Shown here: positions 2,877 to 6,214 of the stretch, one piece after another
How the letters are laid out: every line of letters starts with the position of its first letter
Position numbering within the stretch: the first letter of the stretch is position 1
From: Thermogladius sp.
GTDB lineage: Archaea; Thermoproteota; Thermoprotei_A; Sulfolobales; Desulfurococcaceae
DNA length: 36,425 bases
Reading direction: 5' to 3'
NCBI GenBank assembly: GCA_022759365.1
Contig: JAEMPJ010000017.1
Location: 7,412 to 43,836, forward strand
The notes under the pieces: model-generated
Databases searched by the model: none
Told to the model about the DNA's origin: nothing
The model's input: the letters and a program-made list of their open reading frames with translations, nothing else
Translations under genes and position numbers: made by a program

Positions 2877-3965
2877 GTGGTAAGCATAGTTGTCGTAAGA
2901 AGAGTCAAGCCAGTCCCCTACTTTATTGTCCCGATACTAGCCCTGTTGATCGGCATCGGCGTAAGCATTGTGATACTATTCTTCCTAACAGGCTACATGG
3001 TTCAGCCAATGGACGTCCTGGTCTCTATTTGGACAGGCCTCTCACAGCCGAACGTGATCGCCAATATATTCCTGATATTAACCATAGTAGGGTTCTCGCT
3101 TGCAATGAGCTTTAAGGGAGGAATATACAATATCGGCGGGGAAGGCCAGTTCTGGATGGCGGCTTGGACGATCGTGTGGCTGGTGTTCACGACTCCAATA
3201 ATAGTATCCCAAGCACCGCTGGTGTCGAAGCTTATAGCCCTGGTAGCAGGGTTCATAGCAGGGTTCGCCTGGGGGTTCCTCGCTGGGATCCTAAGGGGGT
3301 ACGTGGGGGTAGACGAGGTCCCGTTGACGCTGATGATGAACTACGTTGCGTATTACCTAATAGACTGGCTTGTCATGATCCCCGGTAGCCCGTGGAGAGA
3401 CATCTATGGGTACGCTAAGACTCGCTCCCTACCGCAAACCCTTCAATACTCGATTATCCCCGGCACTACAGTCTCAGTGGAGATGATTATAGTAACAATT
3501 GTAATCGGAGTCCTAATATGGTTGATCCTAGACTACACTAGGCTAGGGCTAACTATAAAGATACACGGCAGCAATGTTAACCTGTTGAGGAGTGCTGGCT
3601 ACAGTGTCCCTTTGACGGCTGCTCTAACTCTAGCTTTGTCAGGCGGCTTCATCGGGATCGCAGGCGTCGTCTACCTGTCTGGTGTAACACCGAGTATAAG
3701 GGTACCCGTGGAGACAAGTACCTCGGGGTTCGGCTACCTAGGGATACTTGTAACATGGCTCTCAATGCTGGAGTTGTTCGCTGTCCCTATAGCAGCATAC
3801 GTGGTCAGTAGCCTGTACAACGCGGGGTTCACTCTCATGGCGATAAAGGGGACTCAGCAAGCAGGTGTAACAGCGGGTGTCACAAACGTTTTCATCGGGA
3901 GCGTACTCTTAACCTACGCTCTGCTAATAACGATATCCGAGTACGAGATTAGGATAGTGTGGTGA
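2877..3965 (+). CDS. BMP-type ABC transporter permease, subunit 1
   Basis: Integral membrane subunit of the branched-chain/ribose permease superfamily (BPD_transp_2; NupP-like), 362 residues with about nine or ten hydrophobic segments. The family pattern is visible in the segment around FKGGIYNIGGEGQFWM and in LSGGFIGIAG. It should pair with the next gene product to form the translocation pore served by the upstream ATPase. GTG 2877 is two bases after the preceding stop codon. Its TGA stop (3963-3965) lies inside the GGTGA ribosome-binding site of the next permease gene, a strong sign of one polycistronic message. Substrate assignment follows only from the BMP partner. Confidence 0.9.
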   Translation: MVSIVVVRRVKPVPYFIVPILALLIGIGVSIVILFFLTGYMVQPMDVLVSIWTGLSQPNVIANIFLILTIVGFSLAMSFKGGIYNIGGEGQFWMAAWTIVWLVFTTPIIVSQAPLVSKLIALVAGFIAGFAWGFLAGILRGYVGVDEVPLTLMMNYVAYYLIDWLVMIPGSPWRDIYGYAKTRSLPQTLQYSIIPGTTVSVEMIIVTIVIGVLIWLILDYTRLGLTIKIHGSNVNLLRSAGYSVPLTAALTLALSGGFIGIAGVVYLSGVTPSIRVPVETSTSGFGYLGILVTWLSMLELFAVPIAAYVVSSLYNAGFTLMAIKGTQQAGVTAGVTNVFIGSVLLTYALLITISEYEIRIVW

Positions 3966-4975: not shown

Positions 4976-5827
4976 TTGAGCAAGATAGCTTTAATATCGC
5001 TGATCCTAGCTGTCTTAGGAGTCTCCTTGATAGTTGTCTCCTTTACTCTACCCAGGGAGCTAGGCTTGAAAAAACAGCACACTCTTAATCTCGGAGGCCA
5101 GTCTTCAGCGAGTGTGGAGACGTGGCTTGACAGTGGAGACCAGGTAGCGGTTACTCTACCAGCACTATCAAACGGCTCTATTGCAATTTCAGGCAGTGAA
5201 TACAACTACACGGATGTGTTCTACGATGTTGCATCGTTCACAATATTCTTCAATGGCCCAAGCGGGTTGTACAACATCAGTATCCGAGTCCAAGGGAGGC
5301 TTAGCCTTGTCAACGTGAGCGTGGTCGGGTATAAGTATAGCGTGGTACAAAACATTGTATCCGCAGTAGGGTTTACCACACTTGTAGCCGGCCCGGGCCT
5401 CTACTACGGCTACCACTTGACGAGGAGGCAGCCCGACACTAGAGAGGGTAGTGTCGGCGGTGTCAGCGTGGTCTGCAGGACTCTCGGCTATGACAGACAT
5501 AGATGCACGATCAAGCCTGTAGAGCACGGTGCCGAAAACCCTCTGGGAGAAGAAATGTTGTCAGCCTTACACCGGTTCCTCGAGGAAAAAGGGTATCAGT
5601 GGAGGGTGTTGAAAGATAGAGTGCTGTTCGCTCGGCATAAAACCGGGAGGAACGAGCTGACGATCATAGTCGGCCCCAGCCAGGTTAGCGTTGACTACCG
5701 TGTCAGAAAGCTGCTTGCTAAGGGCAGTAGGGATCTGGAATGGGTTTTCGGGGAGGCGTTCGAGCTCGCGTCTCTGATTTCGGAGAGACTCGGCGGGAAC
5801 CCGGGTTCCAAGGTTGCTAATGGTTAA
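4976..5827 (+). CDS. hypothetical membrane-anchored protein
   Basis: I do not recognise this 283-residue protein. It begins with a membrane segment (about residues 5-25, ALISLILAVLGVSLIVV) and continues with about 95 residues of probable extracytoplasmic beta-rich sequence with several N-x-S/T sites (for example NGS, NYT, NIS, NVS). A second membrane segment follows (about 125-145), then a cytoplasmic domain of about 130 residues with mixed charge. That tail contains a Cys-x-Cys-poor, basic start and a motif like LEEKGYQWRVLKDRVLF, which resembles a small alpha/beta domain. The TTG start is supported by AGGTG at 4963-4967. It has its own promoter after the importer terminator, so it is probably not part of that operon. 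Function unknown. Confidence 0.75.
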   Translation: MSKIALISLILAVLGVSLIVVSFTLPRELGLKKQHTLNLGGQSSASVETWLDSGDQVAVTLPALSNGSIAISGSEYNYTDVFYDVASFTIFFNGPSGLYNISIRVQGRLSLVNVSVVGYKYSVVQNIVSAVGFTTLVAGPGLYYGYHLTRRQPDTREGSVGGVSVVCRTLGYDRHRCTIKPVEHGAENPLGEEMLSALHRFLEEKGYQWRVLKDRVLFARHKTGRNELTIIVGPSQVSVDYRVRKLLAKGSRDLEWVFGEAFELASLISERLGGNPGSKVANG

Positions 5828-5851
5828 AAACCAGCTTCTTTCATTTAATTA

Positions 5852-5914
5852 AACTGTGATGATGAGGAATCCTGGGCTGCGACTAGTGTTGAAGGCCCCG
5901 CATAGCTGATGACA
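5852..5914 (+). ncRNA. probable C/D box guide sRNA
   Basis: The intergenic segment has box C as GTGATGA (5856-5862) or ATGATGA (5859-5865), a possible box D' CTGC (5877-5880), box C' TGTTGA (5887-5892) and box D CTGA (5906-5909). The span is about 60 nt, normal for archaeal C/D RNAs. The stretch before D' is 11 nt (GGAATCCTGGG) and the stretch before D is 13 nt. A TATA-like GTTAAAAA at 5823-5830 predicts a start near 5852. By the N+5 rule the targets would be a G in CUAUGCGGGG (D guide) and a G in CCCAGGAUUCC (D' guide). I did not match these to a particular rRNA or tRNA. Confidence 0.6.
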
Positions 5915-5927
5915 CTGCTAGGTAACA

Positions 5928-5936
5928 TTTTTATTT
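5928..5936 (+). promoter_or_regulatory. TATA box of the ferredoxin gene
   Basis: TTTTTATTT is placed to start transcription near 5958, about 11 bases before the ferredoxin ATG at 5969. This supports the short form of the protein. Confidence 0.5.
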
Positions 5937-5968
5937 CCTACCCGTCTAAATCAACATGGTGTCGGGTA

Positions 5969-6214
5969 ATGGCTAAGTACAAGGTTGAGATAAGCCCTAG
6001 AGAAAACTGTATATCAGACATGGTTTGTGTATCGATCTGCCCCGACGTATTCGAGATGAGCCCCGAGGACAACAAGTCGCAGATAGTTGAGAAATACCGT
6101 GTGGACAAATCCAATAACGCTGTAGGCATAGTGCCCGAGGACTTGAAGAGCTGTGTTGAAGACGCTGCCGCCGCGTGCCCGGTTCAGATAATACATGTTG
6201 TAAAGGTCGAGTAA
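5969..6214 (+). CDS. ferredoxin, single [4Fe-4S] cluster with Asp ligand
   Basis: Small (81-residue) cytoplasmic electron carrier of the Pyrococcus/Thermotoga single-cluster type. Cluster ligands in order are C14, D17, C20 (CISDMVC) and, near the C-terminus, C70 in ACPV. The second ligand position is Asp, as in P. furiosus ferredoxin. C24 (in ICPDVFEM) and C62 match the pair that forms a disulfide in that protein. I start at ATG 5969: upstream in-frame sequence to 5909 crosses the TATA box and is not conserved in kind. A partner oxidoreductase is not adjacent; likely partners are pyruvate and 2-oxoacid ferredoxin oxidoreductases elsewhere. Confidence 0.92.
   Translation: MAKYKVEISPRENCISDMVCVSICPDVFEMSPEDNKSQIVEKYRVDKSNNAVGIVPEDLKSCVEDAAAACPVQIIHVVKVE

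Follow-up and report, generated by a model that had tools for sequence, protein, structure and literature searches.

Does the short gap in front of a ferredoxin gene of Thermogladius sp. encode a C/D box guide RNA, and on which RNA would such a guide act? We analyzed a 36,425-nucleotide stretch of DNA (the window) from a draft genome (G000) of 1.15 Mb in 64 contigs, with a marker-gene completeness of 99%. The locus lies between a 283-aa ORF and the gene for an 81-aa ferredoxin, itself followed by an M20 peptidase gene. A first-pass annotation, made from the letters of the window, had reported a 141-bp gap before the ferredoxin gene, and the distance from the ORF end at 5827 to the ferredoxin ATG at 5969 indeed measures 141 bp. 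In congeners, the upstream ORF is just 45 to 47% identical, compared with 93% for ferredoxin.

A C/D box sRNA gene predicted in the intergenic gap

The annotation had seen boxes C, D′-like, C′, and D in this order with guide-sized spacers, and we read all four at 5856 to 5909 (Table 1), with spacers of 11 nt (C to D′), 5 nt (D′ to C′), and 13 nt (C′ to D). The span given there, 5852 to 5914, was right as to location and too wide in extent, the conserved core being slightly shorter. An alternative C box, ATGATGA at 5859 to 5865, overlaps the GTGATGA at 5856 to 5862. Box D′ had been called imperfect and the second guide less sure, which the CTGC found here bears out; this box is degenerate across relatives too. 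A TATA-like box had been placed about 25 to 30 bases upstream, and TTAAAAA is seen about 26 to 32 nt before the C box, with an A/T run (TTTAAA) at the matching place in two congeners. We infer that TTAAAAA is a TATA-like promoter element of the sRNA. The T-rich stretch downstream probably serves as the ferredoxin TATA box, as the end of the sRNA transcript, or as both.

Table 1. Features at and around the predicted sRNA gene (positions in the window)
Feature	Position	Strand	Basis
Upstream ORF, 283 aa	4976-5827		no Pfam match
TATA-like box TTAAAAA	5824-5830	+	sequence; about 26-32 nt before C box
C/D box sRNA core	5856-5909	+	strict motif order, conservation, model matches
C box GTGATGA	5856-5862	+	sequence; GATGA kept in most homologs
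D′ guide GGAATCCTGGG	5866-5876	+	complementary to tRNA T-arm CCCGGGGUUC; in Thermogladius also to 23S CCAGGGUUCCUC
Imperfect box D′ CTGC	5877-5880	+	sequence; degenerate in relatives
C′ box GTGTTGA	5886-5892	+	sequence; TG at matching place in most homologs
D guide AGGCCCCGCATAG	5893-5905	+	core GCCCCGCAU pairs with tRNA 24-32
Box D CTGA	5906-5909	+	sequence; CTGA, CCGA, or CGGA in homologs
T-rich stretch CATTTTTATTT	5927-5937	+	sequence; conserved in two congeners
Ferredoxin gene, 81 aa, one 4Fe-4S cluster	5969-6214	+	Pfam Fer4_13, Fer4_15; synteny

We scanned the window and its reverse complement with a strict four-box pattern (RTGATGA, N8-14, CTGN, N3-12, RTGWTGA, N9-15, CTGA). It occurred only at the sRNA locus on either strand, with two overlapping starts, and in none of 200 dinucleotide-preserving shuffles of the window. 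A looser pair of C and D boxes is unremarkable, being present in 92 of the 200 shuffles. No Rfam family matched the sRNA segment above its gathering threshold, and the best sub-threshold match, sR18, reached 17.4 of 45 bits. When the threshold was relaxed for positions 5780 to 5990, 14 of the 15 matches were to sR families of archaeal C/D RNAs, and every one of these 14 overlapped the sRNA span on the plus strand. The source genome also carries a fibrillarin gene (E = 2.6e-104); Nop5 and L7Ae are standard archaeal proteins.

Conservation and homologs of the sRNA

The core is 91% identical between G000 and its congeners G001 and G002, compared with 52 to 59% in the upstream and 67 to 70% in the downstream intergenic flank. 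A BLASTN scan of 61 genomes recovered these two congeneric copies (E of about 1e-14) and fragments of the D guide in several other genera, with no copy in the congener G003. Other BLAST leads were discarded as tRNA sequence, as lacking boxes and guides, or as coding-like.

A sequence model (R1) built from 15 BLASTN-derived homologs matched 44 of 214 genomes from the order (E ≤ 0.01). All 22 matches at E ≤ 1e-8 fell in the family of the window (f1), and the weaker ones, read individually, included clear homologs in four other families. Of 15 weak matches fetched, 9 were kept and 6 were dropped for want of a D-guide core followed by box D (the second match in G028 and those in G134, G183, G083, G091, and G149). 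A second model (R2), built from an alignment of 35 homologs (A3) that omits four near-identical strong ones (G024, G031, G036, and G027), matched 57 of 229 genomes from the class (E ≤ 0.001), all in one order and distributed over five families (27 in f1, 14 in f6, 11 in f8, 3 in f10, and 2 in f4). R2 found no match in 13 of the 40 f1 genomes, G003 among them; several of the 13 are incomplete.

Together, the box anatomy, the conservation above that of the flanks, the homologs in 57 of 229 genomes, the sub-threshold Rfam sR matches, and the fibrillarin gene argue that the segment is almost certainly a real C/D box sRNA gene, as the first-pass annotation had read it. We also observed that the loop between D′ and C′ varies in length among the homologs of A3 while the guides stay. 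It measures about 5 to 6 nt in Thermogladius and, in many relatives outside the genus, 20 to 40 nt, often with a hairpin-like appearance.

Predicted pairing of the D guide at G26 of several tRNAs

We compared the guides with all 43 tRNA matches of G000. In the G000 assembly, neither a 16S nor a 23S gene scored over threshold, and rRNA targets were therefore read in relatives. Among these, the 23S match of the congener G001 spans 3683 bases, compared with about 3080 to 3110 in several relatives, an extra length that suggests introns. Pairing of the D guide was anchored on box D, and tRNA positions were numbered from the cloverleaf.

The D guide pairs over 10 to 12 bp with the stretch AUGCGGGGCUU at nt 24 to 34 of tRNA-Pro(UGG/CGG) and tRNA-Gln. 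The longest pairing was with tRNA-Gln(UUG) (12 bp, 1 G-U), followed by tRNA-Pro(UGG) (11 bp, 1 G-U), tRNA-Gln(CUG) (10 bp, 1 G-U), and tRNA-Pro(CGG) (10 bp, 2 G-U); tRNA-Asp and tRNA-Glu each gave 8 bp without G-U pairs. In all six tRNAs, G26 faces the fifth guide nucleotide upstream of box D. The guide does not fit tRNA-Pro(GGG), whose 24-32 stretch is AUGCCGGCC, and the two guide nucleotides adjoining box D are unpaired with the Pro and Gln tRNAs of G000. The Pro and Gln sites exceed the nine bases of complementarity to a stable RNA whose absence the first-pass annotation had named as refuting its reading. The target string it had predicted for the D guide, CUAUGCGGGG, belongs to no stable RNA here, and the stretch that pairs is AUGCGGGGCUU.

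Shuffled D guides reached the observed score on tRNAs in 12 of 4000 cases and on tRNAs plus rRNAs in 29 of 4000. Among 271 CTGA sites in the window, three scored as high against tRNAs, namely the sRNA site and two others. Given the chance scores on tRNAs and at CTGA sites, complementarity in one genome is suggestive only.

Across the 35 aligned homologs, the D guide never varies at position -11 or from -9 to -4, and a single homolog departs at -3. The core GCCCCGCAU complements tRNA nt 24 to 32, and guide position 5 holds the same nucleotide in all 35. Because the homologs were found with models made from the same sequences and were kept only if they had the D-guide core, this core conservation is partly ascertained. 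Variation is found at the edges, at the limits of the pairing: position -1, which faces G22, is G in 27, A in 7, and T in 1 homolog and is unpaired in 34 of the 35, and positions from -12 outward vary. The target stretch is itself conserved in the tRNAs of relatives, as judged with a pattern for AUGC at nt 24 to 27 in 25 genomes, with exceptions such as AUGCGAGGC in G044. The sRNA is most likely a guide for tRNA G26.

Other candidate targets of the D guide were set aside. The best sites in the 16S and 23S rRNAs of G001 gave 7 to 10 bp with up to 3 G-U pairs (10 bp with 3 G-U at best), and a 23S site in G006 (10 bp, 1 G-U) was absent from the other genomes tested. The string CTATGCGGGGCC had its only perfect matches in the sRNA genes, on the opposite strand, in a search of 6 genomes allowing up to 1 mismatch.

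The D′ guide matches the tRNA T-arm and, in Thermogladius, a 23S site

The first-pass annotation had given CCCAGGAUUCC as the target of the D′ guide. This string was not found as such; instead, the guide pairs with the T-arm stretch CCCGGGGUUC through G-U pairs (10 bp, 2 of them G-U, in G000) or, in Thermogladius, with a site in 23S rRNA. In f1, the D′ guide mostly reads GAAYC(C/T)(C/T)GGG and forms at least 10 bp with the T-arm of tRNA-Pro, with 1 to 3 G-U pairs in most cases. T-arm pairing in f4, f6, f8, and f10 is mostly 7 to 8 bp. T-arm matches as good as that observed arose with 40 of 400 shuffled D′ guides, and the best match of the guide within Thermogladius is not the T-arm but 23S CCAGGGUUCCUC. 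Since the placement of box D′ is not fixed, the position of a D′ product is ambiguous and could be 51, 55, or 56.

The guides vary together between Pro/Gln and Asp/Glu types

Two variable positions of the D guide alternate between letters complementary to one tRNA group and letters complementary to the other. Position -2 is A in 25 of the 35 aligned homologs (pairing with U23 of tRNA-Asp and tRNA-Glu), C in 9 (pairing with G23 of tRNA-Pro and tRNA-Gln), and G in a single one. At position -10, 30 homologs have C and 3 have T, either of which pairs with G31 of tRNA-Pro and tRNA-Gln, and 2 have G, which pairs with C31 of tRNA-Asp and tRNA-Glu. Unlike the conservation of the core, the choice of letter at -2 and -10 is not built in by the way homologs were selected.

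We then classified 56 homologs (the 35 of A3 and 21 stretches at R2 matches) by the tRNA group that each guide fits better. Both guides were of the Pro/Gln type in 48 homologs and of the Asp/Glu type in 5; of the remaining 3, two combined a Pro/Gln-type D guide with an Asp/Glu-type D′ guide, and one was a tie at D′. An Asp/Glu-type D guide was thus always accompanied by an Asp/Glu-type D′ guide (5/5), and 48 of the other 51 homologs were of the Pro/Gln type at both. The Asp/Glu-type loci are L171, L177, L247, L249, and L251. Three of these copies share a genome with a Pro/Gln-type copy (G031, G110, and G082), and these three have no clear box D. The five may descend from a single duplication and would then not count as five independent events.

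A proposed route to 2′-O-methylated G26

We consider it likely that the locus encodes a C/D sRNA whose D guide directs ribose methylation of G26 in tRNA-Pro and tRNA-Gln and, more weakly, in tRNA-Asp and tRNA-Glu, with the D′ guide on the T-arm. In this mechanism, L7Ae, Nop5, and fibrillarin would bind the sRNA, whose D guide would base-pair with the D-stem/anticodon-stem strand (nt 23/24 to 34) of tRNA-Pro(UGG, CGG) and tRNA-Gln and less strongly with the same strand of tRNA-Asp and tRNA-Glu. Fibrillarin would methylate the ribose of G26, opposite the fifth guide position, and this methyl group together with base methylation by Trm1 would give m22Gm26. On the T-arm of the same tRNAs, the D′ guide would serve either as a second methylation guide (for G51, U55, or C56, depending on D′ placement) or as an anchor. 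Such double targeting of one tRNA by both guides is plausible.

The m22Gm26 nucleoside is known from thermophilic archaea (PMC6313347, PMC7668247). The relevant entry of a 2018 review assigns it to 'Trm1 + unknown MT' (PMC6313347), and a passage of a 2020 tRNA survey describes orphan methylations of Sulfolobus acidocaldarius tRNA as still awaiting guides or enzymes (PMC7668247). Guided ribose methylation of G26 is perhaps the missing step to m22Gm26. With a conserved guide that sets G26 in four to six tRNAs opposite the catalytic position, the question becomes directly testable in vitro.

A broader proposal, to which we give somewhat less than an even chance, is that the homologs form a family of C/D sRNAs, spread across the order, whose two guides share a single tRNA as their target (D at G26, D′ at the T-arm), that duplicates have been retuned at both guides together for Pro/Gln or Asp/Glu, and that the family provides hyperthermophilic archaea with the as yet unassigned ribose methylation of m22Gm26.

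Alternative readings of the locus

That the boxes fell into place by chance in an intergenic gap is barely credible: the frequency of loose C and D pairs in shuffled windows (92/200) would allow for it, but the strict order appeared in none of the 200, the core is conserved, and the order-wide homologs refute it in effect. The position of the element invites another explanation, in which it would form a C/D-like kink-turn within the 5′ leader of the ferredoxin mRNA; L7Ae would bind it to control translation, and it would have no role as a guide. Of the 24 f1 loci read, 21 have the ferredoxin gene next after the element, and L7Ae-based translation control has been proposed in archaea, as stated in one report (PMC5539422). 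Conservation nevertheless covers the guide sequences as well as the boxes, a separate TATA-like stretch intervenes before the ferredoxin gene, and no such ferredoxin gene follows the element in G005, G006, and G030 or in any of the six loci read in other families (6/6). Since the ferredoxin neighbor is missing at several homolog loci, the sRNA gene is not tied to the ferredoxin mRNA, and we regard control of this mRNA as very improbable.

Among readings that retain a true C/D sRNA, one would have the D′ guide methylate 23S rRNA within CCAGGGUUCCUC (at G1492 in the 23S of G001), with the D guide either a tRNA guide or targetless. The pairing in Thermogladius is long (13 bp, 2 G-U), and 5 of 400 shuffled D′ guides equaled its score at any place in tRNA or rRNA. 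The site was, however, read in the congener G001, the G000 assembly having no 23S gene, and among G001, G006, G016, G020, G024, and G029 the long pairing exists only in G001. G029 keeps 9 bp, and G006, G016, G020, and G024 are mismatched beside or near the target nucleotide, yet they keep the T-arm pairing. A 23S target for D′ is, by this distribution, unlikely. We find it less probable still, and indeed quite improbable, that the role of the sRNA on these tRNAs is not methylation but that of a folding chaperone or a bipartite anchor on the D/anticodon stem and the T-arm. Pairing of both guides with one tRNA would suit such a role, as would the degenerate D′, which leaves its methylation site unfixed; the D guide, however, has a well-formed box D and an unchanging nucleotide at position 5 (35 of 35 homologs), as would be expected of a methylation guide, and 2′-O-methyl G26 occurs in hyperthermophilic archaea according to the two reports cited (PMC6313347, PMC7668247).

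Relation to known C/D sRNAs

The predicted sRNA resembles archaeal box C/D sRNAs (Rfam sR and the Pyrobaculum, Pyrococcus, and Sulfolobus sets) in its boxes (C′ being good and D′ imperfect), guide-sized spacers, and length of about 54 nt, and differs from them in the longer D′-C′ loop of most homologs outside Thermogladius. The 14 Rfam sR models that align to its span and strand do so below the gathering score, and its guides match no family over threshold. In the literature searched, no description of this sRNA was found.

Guided methylation of G26 is not a new idea. C/D sRNAs of Pyrococcus furiosus have been predicted to target G26 of tRNA-Val and tRNA-Gly (Lowe-lab database, as relayed by Wolff et al. 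2020, PMC7668247); compared by that description only, the target nucleotide is the same and the tRNAs here are those for Pro, Gln, Asp, and Glu. Added here are the sRNA family, the particular tRNAs, and the joint switching of both guides. On the T-arm side, C/D sRNAs of Pyrobaculum aerophilum (for Cm56) and of S. acidocaldarius (for C50 of tRNA-Gly) are known (PMC7912444, PMC7668247). As summarized in these sources, they are T-arm guides like the D′ guide, whose target nucleotide here is one of several. The C/D guide in the tRNA-Trp intron likewise acts on tRNA; according to the account in PMC7994747, it is part of the intron of the pre-tRNA and targets positions 34 and 39, whereas the sRNA described here is a separate gene directed at other tRNAs. 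The same review presents the tRNA-targeting sRNA of Pyrobaculum as having one tRNA guide and one targetless guide (PMC7994747), a pattern from which our sRNA would depart if both of its guides act on one tRNA.

A search for G26 guides of other tRNAs, with a pattern combining a C box and a guide, brought up a second conserved C/D sRNA (TGATGAGCGAACCCGTGT...GACGGTTGGCGTTGCTGA) in 8 of 12 genomes. Its copy in G000 lies at C22:9750-9804 (L194), and the others are L191 to L193 and L195 to L198; one further single match was in G008. The D′ guide of this second sRNA fits tRNA T-arms over 8 to 11 bp; for its D guide, a fit to G26 of tRNA requires 3 to 4 G-U pairs.
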